From assembly GCA_015056205.1 (NCBI GenBank), contig SVGS01000002.1, forward strand, positions 62,001 through 126,000: DNA of 64,000 nucleotides, read 5' to 3'. The stretch's first letter is position 1. The number at the start of each line of letters is the position of its first letter. This DNA comes from Clostridiales bacterium. GTDB lineage: Bacteria > Bacillota > Clostridia > Christensenellales > Aristaeellaceae. The notes below the pieces were generated by a model. It had not been told where the DNA came from. It ran no database searches and saw only the letters and a list, made by a program, of their open reading frames with translations. This document shows, piece by piece, positions 50,372 through 62,132 of this stretch. A program made the translations under genes and the position numbers.

Positions 50372-51577
50372 CTAAACGCCCACCGCACGGTCCTGCTCCA
50401 CGACCGCCCGGGCGTGATCCTCCCTGATCCTGTTCAGCAGCTCCGGCGACTCGATCAGATCAAGTGCTGTCAGCGCCAGCACCTTCGCGCCCAGCGCGAC
50501 GGAGCGCAGGCCGGTCTCGGCTTTGCAGGCTTCCCGCTTCTCGATCGTATGGCCGGCCACCGGCACGTCGCTGATCCGGATCATCGGCTGAATCGTCGGA
50601 ATCACCTGGGAAACATTGCCCACGTCAGAGGATCCCAGCGGCACATTCATCTCTTCATAGCTTTCACCCAGGGAAAGCAGATTCTTCAGATACACCTCGT
50701 CAAAGGAGGGGGTCGGAACCACATTGTCAATCAGATTGCGCTGGGTCGGTTCCAGCAGGCCCTCGCAGCCGGTCTGGAGCGCCGCGCCCTCCGTAATCCG
50801 CTTCAGCTTCTCAATCACATCCATCATCCGGTTCACCGTCGCCGCGCGCACGTAGAACCGGGCTTCGGTGTCATCCGGGATAATATTCGGCGCGTCGCCC
50901 CCGCGGGTCACAATCCCGTGAATCCGCACGTCCCGGGGCAGCTGCTGGCGCAGCAGCCCGATGGCGTTGAAGACGAGAATCAGCGCGTCCAGGGCGTTAA
51001 TCCCCTCATGGGGCGCGGAGGAAGCATGGGAAGCCTTTCCCTTAAACGCGATCCGGATCGGCGCGCAGGCAATCTCCGCGTGCGTCAGCTCGTGATGATC
51101 GGATCCCGGATGCACGCACAGCGCCGCGTCCACATCCTTAAAAAAGCCTTCGCGGACAAAGCTTCCCTTCGCGCTGCCGTTCTCCCCGCCTTCCTCGCCG
51201 GGGGTGCCGTAAACGCGGATTTCTCCGCCGGTTTCCTCAATCACCTGCTTCAGCGAAGCGCCGGCCAGCAGGGAGGTGGGCCCGAACAGGTTATGGCCGC
51301 AGCCGTGCCCCAGCCCGGGCAGCGCGTCATATTCCGCCAGGAACACCAGCACCGGTCCGGGTTTCTTCGCCCTGTAGACCCCCGTGAAGCCCGTGGGGTG
51401 GCCGGCAACGTCCACGGTGACGTCAAAACCCTCCGCCTTCAGCTGCGCCGACAGCGTTTTGCAGGCGAAAAACTCATGATTGCTTGTTTCCGGCCGGGCG
51501 TGAAGATCCAGCGCGATCCGGCGGTAGAGGGGATACTGTTGATCCGCGTAATCCAGGATCTTTTCGCGAAGCGTCAT
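50372..51577 (-). CDS. M20-family amidohydrolase/peptidase
   Basis: 401 residues from ATG 51577, which overlaps the MetI stop (ATGA) and follows GGGAGG. Metal-binding motifs of the M20D group are present: LAEYDALPGLGHGCGHN, TPGEEGGENG (catalytic Glu) and later His residues in CVHPGSDHH and VAGHTIEKREA. These enzymes hydrolyse N-acyl or dipeptide amide bonds (for example N-acetyl-amino acids, aminobenzoyl-glutamate or small peptides). Coupling to a methionine-type importer suggests that the imported compound is an N-acylated or peptide-bound sulfur amino acid, freed here (inference). Confidence 0.9.
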   Translation of the reverse strand: MTLREKILDYADQQYPLYRRIALDLHARPETSNHEFFACKTLSAQLKAEGFDVTVDVAGHPTGFTGVYRAKKPGPVLVFLAEYDALPGLGHGCGHNLFGPTSLLAGASLKQVIEETGGEIRVYGTPGEEGGENGSAKGSFVREGFFKDVDAALCVHPGSDHHELTHAEIACAPIRIAFKGKASHASSAPHEGINALDALILVFNAIGLLRQQLPRDVRIHGIVTRGGDAPNIIPDDTEARFYVRAATVNRMMDVIEKLKRITEGAALQTGCEGLLEPTQRNLIDNVVPTPSFDEVYLKNLLSLGESYEEMNVPLGSSDVGNVSQVIPTIQPMIRISDVPVAGHTIEKREACKAETGLRSVALGAKVLALTALDLIESPELLNRIREDHARAVVEQDRAVGV

Positions 51578-52305
51578 ACCTGTCCTCCCTTTTCTTTTAC
51601 GGAATGCCGGCGGGGAAACAGCCCGCGGTTCGTGGTTCTGCGGGAAAGGCCGTTCCCCAGGCTCTGCAGCACAAAGGTCACGATCAGCAGCACAATCACG
51701 CACACATTCACAATATCCGGATGGTTCTGATTCTGGCCGTAATTGATGGCGAAGGAGCCGATGCCCCCCGCTCCGACCGCGCCGGCCATGGTGGTCAGTC
51801 CGATCAGGCTGATCGCGGTGACCGTCGTCACCCGGATCAGATCCGGAACCGCCTCCCGGAGATAAACCCGGAAGATCAGCCCCGCCGTTCCGCTGCCCAT
51901 GCTCCGCGCGGCCTCCACCTTTCCCGGATCCACGCCGGAAAGGGCCACCTCGACCTGACGGCTGTAAAAGGGAACCGTGCCGAACACCAGCGGCAGAATC
52001 GCGCCTTTCACATTGATCGCCGTGCCGACCACCGCCCGGGTCAGGGGAATCAGGAAAATCAGCAGGATAATAAACGGAACGGAGCGGAATACGTTGATGA
52101 TCAGATTCGTCGTCTGGTACACCGCGGGCTTCGGCGCGATTCCATCCTTTTTCGTGATCACCAGCAGGATTCCCAGCATCAGGCCGATCACTCCGGCGAT
52201 CAGGCCGGCTTTCCAGAACATCTCCGCCGTGGCCAGACAGCTTTTATAAAACTTGTCACGATACAGATACAGATTCGGCGTGAGCTGCTGCATCAGTTCC
52301 TCCAT
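51574..52305 (-). CDS. metI: Methionine-type ABC transporter permease MetI (copy 1)
   Basis: 243 residues, five to six membrane helices. The EAA coupling loop reads KVEAARSMGSGTAGLIFRVYL, and the VGAGGIGSFAINYGQNQNHPD end is characteristic of MetI. Its start lies about 50 nt inside the metN reading frame, an unusually long overlap; a later in-frame Met at residue 29 would remove the first helix and is unlikely. It forms a homodimeric channel with the adjacent MetN ATPase. Confidence 0.92.
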   Translation of the reverse strand: MEELMQQLTPNLYLYRDKFYKSCLATAEMFWKAGLIAGVIGLMLGILLVITKKDGIAPKPAVYQTTNLIINVFRSVPFIILLIFLIPLTRAVVGTAINVKGAILPLVFGTVPFYSRQVEVALSGVDPGKVEAARSMGSGTAGLIFRVYLREAVPDLIRVTTVTAISLIGLTTMAGAVGAGGIGSFAINYGQNQNHPDIVNVCVIVLLIVTFVLQSLGNGLSRRTTNRGLFPRRHSVKEKGGQV

Positions 52306-53368
52306 CCCTGATCACCTCCGCGCTTACATGATTCTGCCGCAGGAACGCCAGTCCCTTGTCGACATTTTCCCGTTCCCCGCTGATAATCCCGGCCATCCCG
52401 CCCACCGGATTACCGTGAAGGTATTCCGAATTCGCCAGGATAATATTCAGATCAAAGCCGTATTTCCGGGCGGCCGTCGTCAGCAGATGCTCGCCGACGC
52501 AGTCCTTCTGAAACATCAGGCGGACCAGCATCTCGCCCGGCTTCACCCGGACCAGCTCCGCGTTTTCCTCCAGCAGCTTGTCCAGTTTGCCCAGCAGCGA
52601 GGAGGTGGAAACAAACTTCCGGGTGATTTCCTTCTGCGGATCCGCGAAAACATCGTATACGGTTCCTTCTTCGACCACCCGGCCGTTCTCCATCACCGCC
52701 ACCCGGTCGGCAATGCTTTTGATCACCGCCATTTCATGCGTGATGAGCACAATCGTCACGCCCAGCTGCCGGTTGACCGCCTGCAGCAGGGACAGAATCG
52801 CTTCCGTCGCTTCCGGATCCAGCGCGCTGGTCGCCTCGTCTGACAGCAGAATCCGGGGCTCCGCGGCCAGAGCCCGCGCAATGGCGACGCGCTGCTTCTG
52901 GCCGCCGGAAAGCTGGGACGGATAAACGTCGGTCTTGTCCTCCAGCCCGACCAGCGCCAGCAGTTCGCTTACCCGCTGCTCAATCTGCTTCCGGCTCCTG
53001 CCGGTATGCTGCAGCGGATAGGCGACGTTTTCAAACACCGTACACCGGTCCAGCAGATTAAAATGCTGGAAGATCATGCCGATGCCCCTGCGCATGTTAT
53101 TCTGCTCCCGGGCCGACATTCCCTTTCCGTTCAGATACGGCTTTCCGTTTCTGAAAACAATCTCACCGACGCCCTCGATTTGAATGCTTCCCGAATCCGG
53201 TGTTTCCAGCAGGTTGAGGCAGCGCACCAGGGTCGATTTTCCGGCGCCGGACGATCCGATCACCCCGTAAATCACGCCGTCGTCTATCGTCAGGGACACA
53301 TCCCGGACGGCTTCCACGTCGCCGCTTTTGAGGCGAAAAGTCTTGTTCAGCTCCCGAATCTCAATCAT
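52256..53368 (-). CDS. metN: Methionine-type ABC transporter ATPase MetN (copy 1)
   Basis: 370 residues. Walker A GSSGAGKST (Lys44), signature LSGGQKQR, Walker B ILLSDEATSALD and switch HEMAV are all intact. The C-terminal part (about 280-355) is the NIL regulatory domain, which binds methionine in MetN and gives feedback inhibition of transport. The insert between Walker A and Q-loop (GVGEIVFRNGKPYLNGKGM) is slightly long. It follows the permuted MetQ by 34 nt and overlaps MetI. Confidence 0.95.
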   Translation of the reverse strand: MIEIRELNKTFRLKSGDVEAVRDVSLTIDDGVIYGVIGSSGAGKSTLVRCLNLLETPDSGSIQIEGVGEIVFRNGKPYLNGKGMSAREQNNMRRGIGMIFQHFNLLDRCTVFENVAYPLQHTGRSRKQIEQRVSELLALVGLEDKTDVYPSQLSGGQKQRVAIARALAAEPRILLSDEATSALDPEATEAILSLLQAVNRQLGVTIVLITHEMAVIKSIADRVAVMENGRVVEEGTVYDVFADPQKEITRKFVSTSSLLGKLDKLLEENAELVRVKPGEMLVRLMFQKDCVGEHLLTTAARKYGFDLNIILANSEYLHGNPVGGMAGIISGERENVDKGLAFLRQNHVSAEVIRDGGTDAAAHAESVSVS

Positions 53369-53402: not shown

Positions 53403-54314
53403 TTACTGTTCCTTTTTCCCCGCGGCTTCCTTCAGCGCGTCCAGCGAATCATACTTCCGGGAATACAGCGTCAGCGGAGCAATCAGGGTATCGCCGATGA
53501 CGGTCAGGTCATAACCGTTGGCGGACGCGTCGTTGTTCAGATAGGCTTTATGCTGGAAAGCGTTCAGGTCGATCTCTCCGGAGTTCAGCGCCTCGTTGGG
53601 CAGATTGTAGGCGTCAAATTCCACCAGCTCGATGTAGATGCCCGCGTTCTCCTCGTCCAGCACCTTCTGGACCGCCTTCCACTGATCGTTGTTCGCGCCG
53701 CATACACCGACCGTCACCACCGTCTTGCCTTCCCGGTCGGAAGCATAGGCAACGATCTCCTTCGCTTCCTCGGGAGTCAGCCTGATCGCGCTGTCATAGG
53801 CAAAGGCCGGATAGAAGGCTTCTTCGTAGTTCACCAGCAGGAACTCCGCGACCAGCTGCGTCTGATAGGCGGCGACAACCTTCTGATAGGTTTCGTTTGC
53901 GGCGTCCGCGGTGCGGGCCACGATGATGTTCACATAGGGGTTGTCTCCGTTCTCGCTCTGCTTTTCAATGATCAGGCCGTCCCGGGAGGGAATCAGGTTG
54001 TTCGGAATCGCGTAGGTGCCGTTAATCGTGGAGGCTCCGAAATCCCCGAGTGTGGAGGGCAGGGTGTTGGCCTGCACCGGAACGACCTCGACATCATACA
54101 GGTAGCCGGTGATATCCGCCAGCTCGGGGGTATATCCCGCTTCCGGTTTCACCGTGATCAGTCCGGCCGTCTCCAGCAGCTTGATGCCTCTGGACAGGTT
54201 GGTTCCGTCATCCGGAATGCCGATCTGCAGCGTCTCGGCGGAAGCGGCAGCCAGTCCGGCGGCCAGAACCAGGGAAAGAACCAGGGAAAGAATCTTCTTC
54301 GCGGTATTTTTCAT
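53403..54314 (-). CDS. MetQ/NlpA-family binding protein with circularly permuted lobes
   Basis: 303 residues from ATG 54314, 8 nt after AGGAG. Signal peptide 1-26, cleaved after ASA, no lipobox. The mature chain begins with what is normally the second MetQ lobe: LQIGIPDDGTNLSRGIKLL (29-47), then STINGTYAIPNN (95-106) and NPYVNIIVAR (125-134). The normal first lobe follows: TVVTVGVCGANND (198-210), NSGEIDLNAFQHKAYL (244-259), and the chain stops after YDSLDALKEAAGKKEQ, exactly where a canonical MetQ crosses into the IPND lobe. The canonical paralogue next door (54351-55193) has the two lobes in the usual order. Both lobes are complete, so this is rearrangement and not truncation. Ligand is presumably methionine or a relative, but permutation may change specificity. 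Confidence 0.85.
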   Translation of the reverse strand: MKNTAKKILSLVLSLVLAAGLAAASAETLQIGIPDDGTNLSRGIKLLETAGLITVKPEAGYTPELADITGYLYDVEVVPVQANTLPSTLGDFGASTINGTYAIPNNLIPSRDGLIIEKQSENGDNPYVNIIVARTADAANETYQKVVAAYQTQLVAEFLLVNYEEAFYPAFAYDSAIRLTPEEAKEIVAYASDREGKTVVTVGVCGANNDQWKAVQKVLDEENAGIYIELVEFDAYNLPNEALNSGEIDLNAFQHKAYLNNDASANGYDLTVIGDTLIAPLTLYSRKYDSLDALKEAAGKKEQ

Positions 54315-54350
54315 TTTCTTTATCTCCTTTTTCGTTTTCATTCAGTTCGT

Positions 54351-55193
54351 TTACTTCAGTTCGTCCGGAATCCACCACAGGCCCTTCCAGGCGCCGTCCG
54401 CGGCGTTTTCCTTCTCCAGATAGGCCTTGAATTCATCGGAATGATACGCGTCGACGATCGCCTGCGCCCAGTCCGTATGCGCGTTTTCCGCCTTGACCAC
54501 CACCTGCAGGATCAGGTGGGGCAGAATGTCTTCCTGAGCCAGCGCCCTGTACTTCTCGTTCACGCCGGCGTTATAGACCACGGAACCGGTGATAACCACA
54601 TAGTCATAATCCGAAATGGCGGCGGGAATGGTCAGGCTCTTCTGCTCGATCAGCTGCAGGTTGTAGGGATTCTCAATCACGTCGTCCACGCTGACTTTGG
54701 AGATTTCAACGGAGTCGTCGAGTTTGATCCAGCCGATTTTCTGGAGAATCGCCAGGCAGCGCGCGGTATTGGCGGCGTCGTTCGGGATCGCGACCGTGAA
54801 GCCTTCCTTCACTTCGTCCAGCGATTCATGATTGGCGGAGTAAATCGCCGCGGCCACCGTGGGAATCACGCTGATCGGCACCAGGTCGCCGCCGTTATTG
54901 GCGTTGAAGTTCTCCGCGTAGGCGGTATGCTGTTCCACGTTCACATCCACTTCGCCGGCCTGCAGAATCTGGTCCGCAACCAGCAGCTCGGAGGTTTCGA
55001 CCACTTCGGCCTGATAGCCCTTCGCTTCCAGGATCGGGATAATCGCGGCTTCAAACAGTTCGGTGTAAGGTCCCTGGGACTTGGAATACTTAATCAGCTT
55101 CTTGTCGGTTTTGATAATTTCCGTCTCCTCGGCGAAGGCGGCCGCCGCCAGCAGCAGGGACAGCGTCAGAAGAATGGCAACGATCTTTTTCAT
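54351..55193 (-). CDS. metQ: Methionine-type binding protein MetQ/NlpA (canonical order)
   Basis: 280 residues from MKKIVAI, about 9 nt after GGAAGG. Signal peptide 1-21 (AAAAFAEE) without a lipobox Cys. First lobe IKYSKSQGPYTELFEAA and QAGEVDVNVEQHTAYAENF; hinge NHESLDEVKEGFTVAIPNDAANTARCL; second lobe DYVVITGSVVYNAGV. This is the normal MetQ order. The ligand-pocket sequences differ somewhat from classical MetQ (SVVYNAG instead of NGNYA), so the ligand may be a methionine analogue or dipeptide. It lies after metN2-metI2, completing transporter set 2. Confidence 0.9.
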   Translation of the reverse strand: MKKIVAILLTLSLLLAAAAFAEETEIIKTDKKLIKYSKSQGPYTELFEAAIIPILEAKGYQAEVVETSELLVADQILQAGEVDVNVEQHTAYAENFNANNGGDLVPISVIPTVAAAIYSANHESLDEVKEGFTVAIPNDAANTARCLAILQKIGWIKLDDSVEISKVSVDDVIENPYNLQLIEQKSLTIPAAISDYDYVVITGSVVYNAGVNEKYRALAQEDILPHLILQVVVKAENAHTDWAQAIVDAYHSDEFKAYLEKENAADGAWKGLWWIPDELK

Positions 55194-55369
55194 AGGATAA
55201 AACCTTCCTTTCATCTCTTTGATCTCTTTCGTATCCTGCAAATCCTGCATTTTGACCCGTTATCGGTCTGAACAGTTCTCCGTTCCGGTCCGGGACATGC
55301 GCATTCGGTCTCTCGCCCGTCCGTTGTGGCGACATCGACCGGACCACCGGATCCTTCGGATTTCTTTGC

Positions 55370-56059
55370 TCATCTGTGTGCCCTCAGCTTTCTTGATATG
55401 GCGCCTCCGAGAAACTGAATCAGCTGCACGAAGATCACCAGAATCACAACCGTCAGAATCATCAGCGGGGTGTTCATCTTTTCGTATCCGTAGGTCAGCG
55501 TCAGGTCCCCGACGCCGCCTCCGCCCACATAGCCGGCCATGGCCGAGGCTCCCAGAAGGCCGATGGCCCCGGTCGTCAGGGCGAGCACCATGCTGCCCAG
55601 CGTCTCCGGCATCAGGAAATACCGGATAATCTGTAACGTATTGGCTCCCATCGCCTGCGCCGCCTCAATGATCCCGGGCGAGCATTCCAGCAGGCTGTTC
55701 TCCAGCAGCCGGGCAAGATACGGGCTGATGTAGAGAACCAGCGGCACCAGCGCCGCGGTGGATCCGATGGTGGTTCCCATGATCAGCCGGGTCAGCGGCA
55801 TGATGGTGACCAGCAGAATCACAAAGGGAACCGACCGGATCACATTGACATACGTATTCACGACCGCGTACAGGATCCGCGCCGCCTTCCCCTGGACCAC
55901 TCCGTTCTTCCGGGTCAGAACCAGCACCAGCGCCAGAATCAGGCCGATGAAGGTGCCGATCAGCAGACCCCATCCGACCATGTACAGCGACTGCTGGCAG
56001 CTGGTCAGCAGGCGGCTCCATTTGATCCCGAAGATCTTGCTGTTCAGAAAATCGTTCAT
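55370..56059 (-). CDS. metI: Methionine-type ABC transporter permease MetI (copy 2)
   Basis: 229 residues, five to six helices. N-terminal SCQQSLYMVGWGLLIGTFIG, coupling loop GIIEAAQAMGANTLQIIRYFL, and late VGGGGVGDLTLTYGYEKMN mark MetI. Start and metN2 stop share ATGA, giving coupled translation. A 176-nt gap separates it from metQ and contains CCGG-rich complementary segments but no clear terminator. Confidence 0.92.
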   Translation of the reverse strand: MNDFLNSKIFGIKWSRLLTSCQQSLYMVGWGLLIGTFIGLILALVLVLTRKNGVVQGKAARILYAVVNTYVNVIRSVPFVILLVTIMPLTRLIMGTTIGSTAALVPLVLYISPYLARLLENSLLECSPGIIEAAQAMGANTLQIIRYFLMPETLGSMVLALTTGAIGLLGASAMAGYVGGGGVGDLTLTYGYEKMNTPLMILTVVILVIFVQLIQFLGGAISRKLRAHR

Positions 56060-57132
56060 CCTTCATTTCCTTTCCCGGCCGGTATCTCCGTAATGGTCCG
56101 GCTGTTCCAGTCAATGAACAGCCGCTGCCTCAGCGCGCCGGAAGCGTCAATGTACCGCTCCGCCTCCCCGATCGTTTCCGTATCCCCGATCAGCTGAAGA
56201 ATGAAAACGCTCATCATGCTTCCCTGCATCTGGGAAATGTTCGCGCCGATGATGTTGACCTCCAGCCCGGCCCTCCGGCACAGGTTCGCGATCACCGGTT
56301 CATTGACGGAATCCCCGATAAATTTCAGCTGTTCCAGCCTGTAGTGCCGGTTTTCCGCCCGGATCGTGTCATAGAAGGTCTCGGGAACCTGATCGTTGAT
56401 GACGGTGCGCACAAACCGCTTCGTCACGTCCTCTTTCGGCTGCCCGAAAACCGCCAGCACCGTCCCCTCCTCCACAACGCGGCCCTGCTCCATCACGGCG
56501 ACCCTGTCGCAGATCAGCTGAATCACCTGCATTTGATGGGTGATCAGCAGAATGGTGATGCCCATCTCCTGATTGACCCGCTTCAGCAGCTTCAGGATGG
56601 ATTCCGTCGTCTGCGGATCCAGCGCGCTTGTTGCCTCGTCGCACAGCAGGATCTCCGGGCTGGTGGCCAGCGCCCTCGCAATCCCGACCCGCTGCTTCTG
56701 TCCGCCGGAAAGCTGGCTGACGTAGGCGTTCCGCTTGTCCGAAAGCTCCACGAATTCGAGGACCTCCGCCACGCGCTTTTCAATTTCCGCCGCGCTTCGG
56801 TGCTCGAGGATCAGCGGAATCGCGACATTGTGGTATACCGTCTTTCCTTCCAGGAGATTGAACTGCTGAAACACCATCCCGATCTTTCTGCGCAGGGCGG
56901 AAAGGGACTTCCCTTTCAGGCTGTCCAGCCGCTGCCCGGCAACTTCCACCGTTCCCTGATCCGGCGTCTCAAGCCGGTTGACCAGCCGGATCAGGGTGGA
57001 TTTCCCCGCGCCGGAGAAGCCGACGATGCCGTAGATCTCGCCTTTACGGACATGAATGCTCACATCCCGCAGCGCGTGAACCTCCGTCTTCTTCCCGCGG
57101 AAGGTTTTTGTTGCATGTTCAATCCTGATCAT
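56056..57132 (-). CDS. metN: Methionine-type ABC transporter ATPase MetN (copy 2)
   Basis: 358 residues from MIRIEHA after GGAGGACC; upstream in-frame codons overlap the promoter. Walker A GFSGAGKST (Lys44), LSGGQKQR, ILLCDEATSALD and THQMQV are present; C-terminal NIL domain about 270-345 (QLKFIGDSVNEPVIANLCR, VNIIGANISQMQGS). First gene of the long operon (metN-metI-metQ-permuted metQ-metN-metI-M20). The two ATPases differ throughout, so this is an old duplication or two independent sets. Confidence 0.95.
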   Translation of the reverse strand: MIRIEHATKTFRGKKTEVHALRDVSIHVRKGEIYGIVGFSGAGKSTLIRLVNRLETPDQGTVEVAGQRLDSLKGKSLSALRRKIGMVFQQFNLLEGKTVYHNVAIPLILEHRSAAEIEKRVAEVLEFVELSDKRNAYVSQLSGGQKQRVGIARALATSPEILLCDEATSALDPQTTESILKLLKRVNQEMGITILLITHQMQVIQLICDRVAVMEQGRVVEEGTVLAVFGQPKEDVTKRFVRTVINDQVPETFYDTIRAENRHYRLEQLKFIGDSVNEPVIANLCRRAGLEVNIIGANISQMQGSMMSVFILQLIGDTETIGEAERYIDASGALRQRLFIDWNSRTITEIPAGKGNEG

Positions 57133-57207
57133 GTCCGGTCCTCCACCTGCGTTCCCCTGCCTGCCGCTTTTCAGCCGGCGTCCGGCTTCATCGGGAAGCA
57201 TGGCGGA

Positions 57208-58931: not shown

Positions 58932-61900
58932 TCAGGCCTTCCGGTCGGCGGGGCCGTTGTATTTCAGGCACAGCATAGTGATATCGTCAAACTGCTCCGC
59001 GTCCGCCACAAAGGCGTCGATCCCGTGCATGACGTTCGAAAGCACCTCTTCCGGCTCCGCTCCGGGGTTGACGTTCAGAGCGTCGATCATACGTTCGCTG
59101 CCGAACAGCTCGTTTTGCGCGCTGGTGGCTTCCGCCACGCCGTCCGTATAGACGAACAGGCTGTCGCCGGGGTTGAGCTCAAAGCTGTGCTCCCTGAACC
59201 GCATGCCTCCCATGGTAGCGACGGCCGGCGAATGCCGGTAGACCTGAAGTTCATACGCCCCGTCCGCTCTGCGCAGCGCGGGATGCTCGTGACCGGCATT
59301 CGCGGCAACGCCCTTGCCCGTGCTGATCTCCAGCACAGCCGCCCACACGGTAACGAACAGCTCGGCCTCATTGCTCTCGCACAGCTGTTCGTTGGCGTTC
59401 TCCAGCGCTTTGGCGGGGCTCTCGCCGTTCTGCAGGTGCGCCCTGATCAGCGCCCGTGAAACCATCATAAACAGCGCGGCGGGTACACCCTTGCCGGAGA
59501 CATCAGCCATGACCAGGCCGAGGTGATCGTCGTCGATCAGGAAGAAATCGTAGAAGTCGCCGCCTACCTCCTTGGCGGGCTTCATGCTGGCGTAAATGTC
59601 AAATTCGCCGCGGCCCGGGAAGGCCGGGAAGGTATGGGGCAGCATGGACGCCTGAATATTCGTCGCCAGCTGCAGCTCATTCTCGATCCGCTCCCGTCTG
59701 GCCTCCTCGCGGTGCTTGGCTTCCAGCGCGCTCATCTTTCTGCGTACGTACAGGCGTACCAGAAGAGCGATCAAAACCGCTGCCGCGAGCCCCGCCAGGA
59801 TATAGAACCATACCTGCTCGTAGAACGCCTTTTCCTTGATGATCAGTACGGATACTTCCCTGTCGCCCCGGCCCAGGGAGTCCTTCAGCTGCATCGTGTA
59901 ATGATACGTGCCGCCGCGCAGGTTGGTGTAGCCCACGGGCACCATATCGCTGCGGTTGACCGTCGTTCCGCTGCGCTCAAAGCCGTCCAGCCTGAAGCTG
60001 ACCTGAGGATCGCTCAGCGAGTAGTTGAACACATAGCTGTAAACGGTCAGCTTCTGCGTATCCGAAGGGATGACGAACGCGCCGTCCGCGTTGGGGTAAA
60101 GCATCCGGCCGTCCACTTCCACAAACGGAACCGTCGCCTTCAGTTCATCGACGTTCTCAAAGGGCTGTTCTATGTTGACCTTGCAGATGCCGGTGGTTCC
60201 GGCGATGTACAGGTCGCCATCCGGAGTCAGATCACTGTAGGAATTCGCCGTGGTGATGCAGGGCAGGCCGTTGGCGATGCTGTAGTACACGGGGTTGATC
60301 TCCCCGTTGGCAATCAGTTCCTCCGCCGGCGTCACATAAATACCGTTGCTTGAGAGGACCCACATATCGCCCTTGCTGTTTTCAAAGAGATCGAAGTTGT
60401 TGCTGTAGGGGAACTTCTGAACCGTCGTCACCTGATAGTCCGGCGTCATATAGGCAATGGCGTTGCTGGTGACAATCCAGATCAGGTCCCGCTTCGGATC
60501 GCGCTTGAGGCGCATCACGATATCGGAGGGAAGCCCGTCCTCGACATTGATATTCCGCACGCCGGTTTCATTGATGATATAGATCCCGCCGCCGTTCGAG
60601 CCGAGGACGATATCGCCGTTCGTTCCCTCCTCGACGGTCAGGCTCTCGGTATTGACGATGCCGTCCGCTTCGCCGTAGGAGGCGATAATCCGGTCTCCGT
60701 CAATCACGTTCACGCCGCCCGTGAGCGCTACAAGGATCGTGCCGTCCCTGCGTTCGCTGACAGCACGCAAACTGTTGGCCAGGGGCCCGTCGCCCTGGGG
60801 GATCACGGTCAGTTCGCCTTTCTCATAGCGCAGCAGCCCGAACTTCCGCCAGGTGGAAATCCACAGGCGGTCCCGGCTGTCGCGGATAACGGAACGAATC
60901 CTGCAGCCGTCGAGCAGGGCGATCAGATCGTCCGCTTCCGCGTCCTCCCCGGTATTCGTCACGGCTTTCGTCAGCGGCAGGCTGGAAACCGGTCCGTTTT
61001 CACCGATGACGATCAGCCCGTTGTCTGTCGCGACGAACAGCTTTCCTTCGCACATACAGGTGGAATTCACCACGCGCTTCTGCAGGCCGTAGCGCTCGAA
61101 CAGGTCGGAGAACGGATTGGGCACCACCTTCATGACGCCCTGGCGTGTGGAGGTAAACCAGAGGTTGCCCAGATAGTCCCTCATCACATGGCCTATGGAA
61201 TTGTTCATCGGCAGGCCTTCCAGGACATGGAGGCCGTCTTCCCCCAGCACGCCGATGCCGTTGGAGGAGCAGATCCACACCTTGCCGTCGATATATTCCA
61301 TCTGCTGCACGGAGCTCAGCGGCTGTATGTCGATCTTTTCCAGGTCCGTAAGGGTTTCCCCGTAGGAAGCGTGATAGAACCCAAAATCGCCGCCCTCAAA
61401 CCAGAGGCTGCCCGGCTTCGTCGGATCCGGAAGCATGGTCGCCACGCCCTGTACAGGGCTCTCGTCCGCACGGAGGAAGCTGATCAGCTTCCCGTCCCGG
61501 ATCTTCATCAGATCCCCGAAATTGGTCACACCGTAGATGATCCCGTCGCTGCCCATCCGCAGGTCGCGCATGTTCGCCTCGGCGATGGCTTCCTCCTCCA
61601 TCATCCGCAGGTTTCCCTCCGGATCGATCGTCACGATGCCGCAGGTCGTCGCGACATAGACCGTGCCGTTCTGATCTCCCGTAATGGCGCGGGTGTGCGC
61701 CGACTTCATGCCGTCCAGCTTTCCCCACTTTCGCAGCTCGCCCCGCTCCATCACCGCGACCCCGTTATCGTTCGTTCCGATCCACAGGCGGTCCCGGTTG
61801 TCCACAAACAGGCATTTGATGCTGGTGATGCCGCTGGTGGAATCCATACGCACAAAGGTATTGCCGTCGTAGCGGATCAGTCCGCCATAGCTGCCGATCC

Positions 61901-62132
61901 AGATGAATCCTTCCGAGGTCTGTACGATCGCGTTGGCCTCGGATGTAGGCAGCCCGTTGGTGTTGTCATACAGGACCGCGGAGAAATTTTCGGGCTGGCC
62001 GACGGGATCCACGGTGGCCACCCCGTCCGGGCTCCCATCCGCGCCGGCCGTGCCCATATTCAGCAGAATCGCGAGTACCAGGAGCAGATGCAGAAAGCAA
62101 ATCCGCCTTCTGAGCTGCGTCTTCTTTTTCAC
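58932..62132 (-). CDS. Membrane sensor: two-component-type propeller, Y_Y_Y domain and SpoIIE/PP2C phosphatase
   Basis: 1066 residues starting at GTG after GGGAGG. Signal/anchor helix (12-30), then about 14 Reg_prop repeats forming two seven-bladed propellers (recurrent GFIWIGSYGG, RLWIGTNDNG, NLWFTSTRQG), a Y_Y_Y immunoglobulin-like domain (about 680-760), a transmembrane helix (about 774-796), a short coiled linker and a cytoplasmic RsbU/SpoIIE phosphatase (about 830-1060). Metal-binding aspartates are in place: Asp859 (GGDFYD), Asp877 (ADVSGKG), Asp997 (TDGV), Asp1049/1050 (FDDI). The ectodomain is of the kind found in Bacteroides hybrid sugar sensors, but here it is tied to a Ser/Thr phosphatase that would act on an anti-sigma antagonist (inference). 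No STAS protein is adjacent. Confidence 0.9.
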   Translation of the reverse strand: MKKKTQLRRRICFLHLLLVLAILLNMGTAGADGSPDGVATVDPVGQPENFSAVLYDNTNGLPTSEANAIVQTSEGFIWIGSYGGLIRYDGNTFVRMDSTSGITSIKCLFVDNRDRLWIGTNDNGVAVMERGELRKWGKLDGMKSAHTRAITGDQNGTVYVATTCGIVTIDPEGNLRMMEEEAIAEANMRDLRMGSDGIIYGVTNFGDLMKIRDGKLISFLRADESPVQGVATMLPDPTKPGSLWFEGGDFGFYHASYGETLTDLEKIDIQPLSSVQQMEYIDGKVWICSSNGIGVLGEDGLHVLEGLPMNNSIGHVMRDYLGNLWFTSTRQGVMKVVPNPFSDLFERYGLQKRVVNSTCMCEGKLFVATDNGLIVIGENGPVSSLPLTKAVTNTGEDAEADDLIALLDGCRIRSVIRDSRDRLWISTWRKFGLLRYEKGELTVIPQGDGPLANSLRAVSERRDGTILVALTGGVNVIDGDRIIASYGEADGIVNTESLTVEEGTNGDIVLGSNGGGIYIINETGVRNINVEDGLPSDIVMRLKRDPKRDLIWIVTSNAIAYMTPDYQVTTVQKFPYSNNFDLFENSKGDMWVLSSNGIYVTPAEELIANGEINPVYYSIANGLPCITTANSYSDLTPDGDLYIAGTTGICKVNIEQPFENVDELKATVPFVEVDGRMLYPNADGAFVIPSDTQKLTVYSYVFNYSLSDPQVSFRLDGFERSGTTVNRSDMVPVGYTNLRGGTYHYTMQLKDSLGRGDREVSVLIIKEKAFYEQVWFYILAGLAAAVLIALLVRLYVRRKMSALEAKHREEARRERIENELQLATNIQASMLPHTFPAFPGRGEFDIYASMKPAKEVGGDFYDFFLIDDDHLGLVMADVSGKGVPAALFMMVSRALIRAHLQNGESPAKALENANEQLCESNEAELFVTVWAAVLEISTGKGVAANAGHEHPALRRADGAYELQVYRHSPAVATMGGMRFREHSFELNPGDSLFVYTDGVAEATSAQNELFGSERMIDALNVNPGAEPEEVLSNVMHGIDAFVADAEQFDDITMLCLKYNGPADRKA

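Follow-up and report, generated by a model that had tools for sequence, protein, structure and literature searches.

The methionine contacts of Neisseria MetQ are given as R156, N213, N238, Y81, F98, H100 and Y103, of which three bind the amino and carboxyl groups of the ligand and four pack round its thioether (PMC6739813). In the same bacterium, MetNI is reported to reach full stimulation only with MetQ that is lipidated (PMC8416018). The closest precedent for a permuted protein of this kind that was found in the literature searched is TpMglB-2 (Tp0684) of Treponema pallidum, described as a circularly permuted glucose-binding protein of 'Type Ic / Cluster Bc' (PMC4990184).

Here we describe a gene, P0001, within a stretch of 64,000 nucleotides from a Clostridiales bacterium (the window, i.e. 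all the DNA that was analysed). We consider, at a probability of roughly 0.87, that P0001 encodes a natural circular permutant of MetQ (NlpA family) that was opened at the hinge, and that the same permutation arose at least twice and probably a third time.

Lobe order in P0001 and its relatives

The gene and its parts are laid out as follows:

53403..54314, minus strand: circularly permuted metQ (P0001), with PF03180 in reversed order; 303 aa
54234..54314, minus strand: Sec-type signal peptide of P0001 without a lipobox cysteine, ending ...AAASA/ET (by eye and by lipobox pattern scans)
53802..54230, minus strand: lobe 2 of P0001 (usual C-terminal half), placed first; contacts R51, N107 and N138 (312-aa numbering)
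53721..53801, minus strand: 27-residue linker of P0001, between what were the C-terminus (...YPAF) and the mature N-terminus (TVVTVGV...)
53421..53720, minus strand: lobe 1 of P0001 (usual N-terminal half), placed second; contacts Y245, F262, H264 and Y267

The longest open reading frame begins at an upstream ATG (54341) and comprises 312 aa, but the start at 54314 is preferred because an AAGGAG motif was seen by eye upstream of it, at 54324-54329. The gap to the canonical neighbour P0002 is 36 nt from this start (9 nt from the upstream ATG), and the place, start and spacing of the gene thus agree with those given in the earlier note.

Lipoprotein_9 (PF03180, NlpA/MetQ) was the sole Pfam family that matched P0001 at E up to 1. 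It gave a total of 197 bits (cut-off 27) in two stretches that are not colinear with the profile: positions 99-236 come first (aa 39-180) and positions 1-98 second. The same was seen with a canonical HMM built from 155 canonical-order proteins, against which native P0001 matched at 100-237 and then at 2-99 (131.5 and 106.8 bits) and the protein rotated in silico matched in one stretch from 2 to 237 (246 bits); the permuted proteins L016, L109 and L117 showed the same native and rotated behaviour. Since the stretches are reversed and the rotated protein matches end to end, both lobes are complete and the break lies exactly at the inter-lobe crossover, as had been proposed. Lobe 1 of P0001 stops at the hinge motif SLDALKE, and the canonical hinge, which reads SLDEL-K(D/E)G-xIAVPND, is the site of the break. 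The present termini are SLDALKEAAGKKEQ at the C-terminal end and ETLQIGIPDD at the mature start, and the YPAF and TVVTVGV that flank the linker are recognisable by eye when compared with canonical L106. In terms of the usual protein, the 27-residue linker would thus join the old ends, and the new ends would have been opened at the hinge, where SLDELK(DG) meets the strand xIAVPND; lobe 2 is now preceded by a signal peptide.

P0001 scores below the cut-offs of the NCBIfam MetQ models TIGR00363 (152.2 vs 228.85) and NF008285 (170.4 vs 374). Full-length family models can miss permuted MetQs, and divergence also contributes, as the canonical neighbour P0002 likewise stays below both cut-offs. Permuted MetQs probably already stand in the databases under MetQ or NlpA names.

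The lobe order was then determined with lobe-specific HMMs on the ORFs of 240 loci, some of which overlap, so that the ORFs are not all distinct genes. Of the 267 ORFs, 149 had the order 1-2, 117 the order 2-1 and one a single lobe. Chance is excluded as the source of the reversed order, because 117 ORFs read 2-1 and 149 read 1-2 under the same test. The natural circular permutation put forward in the earlier note is therefore supported by the reversed and complete PF03180 match, the rotation test, the homologues and the lobe-wise trees given below.

The homologue search that the note had proposed yielded permuted MetQs in many genomes, within the family of the window and beyond. In the searches of genus, family, order, class and phylum, and of the order of Slackia, the permuted order was read from the match span, and the lobe test was applied to the fetched loci. 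Within the genus, 42 of the 45 genomes match P0001 and 41 of the 45 do so colinearly, hence in permuted order (match spans); G012 has canonical-order matches only. Clade A (the clade labels were taken from hand lists) comprises in this genus the window's genome and seven others, with 66-96% identity to P0001 and with the copy of G022 split over two contigs, and clade B, at about 27-35% identity to P0001, occurs in most of the genomes. A profile of the relatives (A1, built from 19 permuted proteins) matched over most of its length and without order-breaking stops in 52 of 150 family genomes. At E <= 1e-45 the corresponding numbers of genomes were 14 of 297 (order), 19 of 391 (class) and 3 of 398 (phylum), and these three counts are lower bounds, as permuted genes weaker than E 1e-45 are missed; the window's genome is included in all four. 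The named carriers among the best 80 of 580 relatives included Slackia faecicanis DSM 17537 (Actinomycetota; L109) and Oscillibacter sp. ER4 (L117), together with bins assigned to Merdimonas, Lachnospiraceae (several) and Treponema. In the order of Slackia, 15 of 247 genomes gave a permuted match of nearly full length, where 15 such loci were confirmed by the lobe test (15 of the 30 fetched loci are 2-1, L259 among them being the L109 gene again); one more match, in G1312 (36%), was recognised from its span. Two permuted-type matches were observed in G1282 of that order (C77:137-979 and C22:22725-23510). Permuted MetQs are widespread: many Clostridia, members of the order of Slackia and a Treponema bin possess them. 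P0001 is no isolated case, as such proteins are common and probably of several origins.

Near-colinear rows from G574, G1043, G1175 and G138 were rejected as permuted, as their matches cross stop codons and contain no 2-1 ORF; canonical ORFs were found in L083 (G574), L174 (G1043) and L062 (G138). The two canonical metQ ORFs of L083, matched across a stop codon, stand in the tandem arrangement that permutation by duplication needs.

Operon setting and methionine contacts

The minus strand of the window carries, in this order, metN1, metI1, the canonical metQ (P0002), the permuted metQ (P0001), metN2, metI2 and an M20 amidohydrolase gene:

56056..57201, minus strand: metN1, ATPase with NIL domain, first set (profile matches)
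55370..56059, minus strand: metI1, permease of the first transporter set (profile matches)
54351..55250, minus strand: P0002, canonical-order NlpA-family protein with the diverged pocket RTLLEHY; start probably at 55193 (by eye)
52256..53368, minus strand: metN2, the gene that immediately follows P0001; ATPase with NIL domain (TIGR02314 367.3 bits, below the cut-off of 499.7)
51574..52305, minus strand: metI2, permease (NF008049 168.5 bits, below the cut-off of 212)
50372..51703, minus strand: M20-type amidohydrolase (TIGR01891 203 bits, above the cut-off)

These look like two importer sets side by side, the second of which is headed by P0001, and the locus of P0001 has the make-up of a MetNIQ importer: a metN with NIL domain and a metI in the operon. 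P0002 matches PF03180 once, in normal order (6-228). It lacks most of the methionine contacts (RTLLEHY vs RNNYFHY), a variant common to nine canonical rows, and because of this loss its importer probably takes a substrate other than methionine. A search for RNA control (riboswitches and the like) gave no matching Rfam family in the window, and in 13 further loci the only Rfam matches were three tRNAs, all in L109. Elsewhere in the window, the protein encoded at 58932-62132 (1066 aa) resembles, by eye, a sensor rich in repeats whose C-terminal domain is phosphatase-like.

All seven contact positions of Neisseria MetQ, as given in PMC6739813, are kept in P0001, as R51, N107, N138, Y245, F262, H264 and Y267. 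The three that bind the amino and carboxyl groups are on lobe 2 and the four that pack round the thioether on lobe 1. N138 was aligned with E. coli N229, which is equated with Neisseria N238 in that source, and the other six were assigned by motif and spacing, the spacing in lobe 1 being 17, 2 and 3 residues as in Neisseria. In clade A, 22 of 26 rows read RNNYFHY here, and the remaining four comprise two with RNNYCTY, one with RNNYFHF and one that misses a letter. The same combination stands in 77 of the 78 rows of clade B (the 78th is cut short), in all 15 permuted rows of the Slackia order and in 92 of the 142 rows with canonical order. The protein would fold as the usual two-lobed clamp, bind methionine or a close derivative and hand its ligand to MetN2-MetI2.

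A variant of this concerns the substrate, which might be a methionine derivative or conjugate that is cut by the neighbouring M20 amidohydrolase. Such a gene follows metI2 in the window, and M20-like genes also lie near several other permuted genes of clade A, namely L094, L255, L257, L256/L093 (a single record) and, as a weak match of 42 bits, L251. Still, the conservation of all seven contact positions speaks against it, as does the absence of an M20 match in the examined stretches of clades B and C and in the clade-A loci L095, L096 and L258, and we regard a derivative of this kind as unlikely.

Various signs point to a functional gene. Of 37 loci, two of which (L093 and L256) come from one record, 36 have genes like metN and metI, called by similarity to those of the window, next to the permuted gene; in the exception, L101, the gene is near a contig end. 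In 14 of 17 genomes, chosen among the carriers of a permuted gene, the permuted protein is the only member of the NlpA family (PF03180), and these 14 include G001, G031 and G833, each listed as one contig; G029, G032 and G033 have both permuted and canonical family members. Likewise, the whole genomes of Slackia faecicanis (L109), the Treponema bin L126 and the Fournierella bin L118 gave the permuted gene and no other above the cut-off, and Oscillibacter ER4 has a canonical gene besides. Judged by its conservation and context, the permuted metQ looks like a working gene.

Origins of the permuted order

The recurrence of the permuted order can be read in two ways: i) the permutation arose at least twice, in clades A and B; or ii) a single permutation gave all permuted MetQs, and recombination with canonical proteins or convergence scattered clades A, B and C, which we consider improbable. 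Both were weighed on trees for which lobe 1 and lobe 2 were aligned separately and then joined in canonical order. In the first tree, of 112 rows (thinned from 263, with three short rows dropped), clade A with P0001 (support 100/100) and clade B (99/99) are placed among different canonical proteins, and in a quick tree the canonical L106 (from an Oscillospiraceae bin) adjoins clade A. The AU tests were all post hoc, run after the trees had been seen, and their outcome varies with the rows. Two of them leave room for a single event: joining all permuted rows of the first set in one clade lowered lnL by 75.4 and was not rejected (p-AU 0.0705), nor was the union of clades B and C in a hand-picked set of 86 rows with canonical proteins from the order of Slackia (40 log units lower, p-AU 0.062). 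Against it, the union of A and B was rejected in that same set (lnL 119.9 lower, p-AU 0.001) and was borderline in a set of 93 rows (59 log units lower, p-AU 0.043). The 93 rows derive from a set of 95, made by removing 24 long or odd rows and adding 7 after the first tree had been seen. The tree of the 95 rows, which include two very long ones, gave clade B a support of 59/58 with the bootstrap unsettled, and these two (both among the 7 added) were left out of the 93. Clade C, from the order of Slackia, is compatible with being one clade (p 0.556) and is split in the free tree of 86 rows.

The lobes taken singly also count against a single event, as each sets A and B near different canonical proteins. 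By tree distance the canonical proteins nearest to P0001 are L106, L113 and L105 for lobe 1 and L100, L106 and L113 for lobe 2, and clade-B L117 is nearest to others. The identities per lobe (lobe 1/lobe 2) run in the same direction: P0001 shares 65%/47% with canonical L106 vs 28-29%/32% with clade B (L016, L117), and the permuted L264 shares 83%/68% with canonical L276 and 56%/61% with clade B. Clade-B loci have the gene order Q-N-I, and L109 and L118 have N-I-Q; both orders occur in clade A. The linkers differ too, although their lengths (27-29 in A; median 22, range 8-28, in B; 17-20 in C; 17 in L118) are comparable enough to be cited for a common origin, together with the break at the same hinge in all clades. 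A shared break point is nevertheless to be expected, the hinge being the obvious place. On the strength of the AU tests of A with B, the lobe-wise trees, the identities and the gene order, at least two origins of the same permutation, in clades A and B, would be the best-supported reading, and clade C may represent a third.

Each permutant would likely have arisen when tandem copies were fused in frame and the outer halves were then lost. The duplication and trimming of a tandem metQ pair suggested in the earlier note stays plausible in this respect, but a fused 1-2-1-2 intermediate was absent from the 267 classified ORFs. The further suggestion that the neighbouring metQ is a remnant of the parent pair did not hold: P0002 was rejected as the parent of P0001, with which it shares only 30%/18% (lobe 1/lobe 2), far from the values for L106. 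That lobes from two different metQ genes were fused in a new order is very improbable: two metQ genes do adjoin in the window, but both lobes of P0001 are nearest to the same few canonical proteins (L106, L113, L105, L100) and P0002 is far from either. An assembly artefact or pseudogene can practically be dismissed, since, although many carriers are metagenome bins, the order recurs in tens of genomes, including the one-contig G001, G031 and G833 and the strains Slackia faecicanis DSM 17537 and Oscillibacter sp. ER4, with conserved contact positions.

Membrane tether and comparison with known systems

In the permuted protein the exported N-terminus would lie at the hinge and no longer where lobe 1 begins, and the membrane tether would therefore sit at the hinge in those permutants that are lipidated. 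By the pattern scan, the signal peptide of P0001 does not end in a lipobox cysteine; the scan found one in 3 of 26 clade-A rows, 34 of 78 clade-B rows, 14 of 15 clade-C rows, L118 (1 of 1) and 75 of 157 canonical rows. Between the lipid cysteine and the first strand the median was 6 residues in the 34 rows of clade B and likewise in the 14 of clade C, compared with 15 residues in the 75 canonical rows, and the three clade-A rows with a lipobox gave 9, 16 and 56. The shorter tether in the permuted clades B and C is a hint, as the rows are related and the statistics ignore kinship. Loss of the lipoprotein machinery was rejected as the cause of the missing lipobox in P0001, since the genome has three matches to the LGT family that exceed the cut-off. 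In view of these matches and of the role reported for lipidated MetQ in Neisseria, the missing lipobox counts against reading P0001 as a working MetQ. The N-termini of the permuted L052, L056 and L057 look by eye like a transmembrane anchor and not like a cleaved or lipidated signal peptide.

An extended reading would make MetQ a recurrent permutant: the hinge would have been opened at least three times (A, B and C, and possibly more with L118 and a split C), the permuted form would have taken the place of the canonical form as sole MetQ of whole genomes, and the gain would be a repositioned, shorter tether at the hinge. We see the chances of this as evenly balanced.

To our knowledge, most natural circular permutations are old and known from a single occurrence, which makes it hard to test how they came about and what they gained. 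In the present case one bacterial order contains both permuted and canonical MetQs, with identities per lobe of up to 83%/68% among the pairs compared (L264 and L276). Such close pairs, the probable repeated origins at the same hinge and the known methionine chemistry would allow direct tests of what a permutation does to folding, to opening and closing, to tethering and to docking onto the transporter. The case looks like a repeated natural experiment within one importer family.

P0001 resembles the described members of the MetQ/NlpA family (E. coli 4yah and 6cvl; Neisseria 3ir1 and 6oja) in both lobes, in the positions of the methionine contacts and in an operon with metN and metI. It differs from them in that its lobes are reversed, its ends are at the hinge, a linker lies between the old ends and a lipobox is lacking. 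The permuted order was absent from the 22 PDB sequences that match P0001, each of which matches canonical L155 in one colinear stretch. No description of a natural permuted MetQ was found in the literature searched, which comprises few of the subscription papers, and the remark in the earlier note that none was known agrees with this.

What TpMglB-2 (PMC4990184) has in common with P0001 is a natural circular permutation in a ligand-binding protein whose two-lobed fold is like those of ABC transporters; for P0001 this fold and the ligand binding are predicted. TpMglB-2 has a Type I/Cluster B fold in which strands of one lobe were moved and a fourth crossover was added (PMC4990184); judged by sequence only, P0001 falls outside this group, as only Lipoprotein_9 matches it. 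Compared with that precedent, in P0001 whole lobes are exchanged at the hinge, the protein belongs to another family and the event appears to recur.
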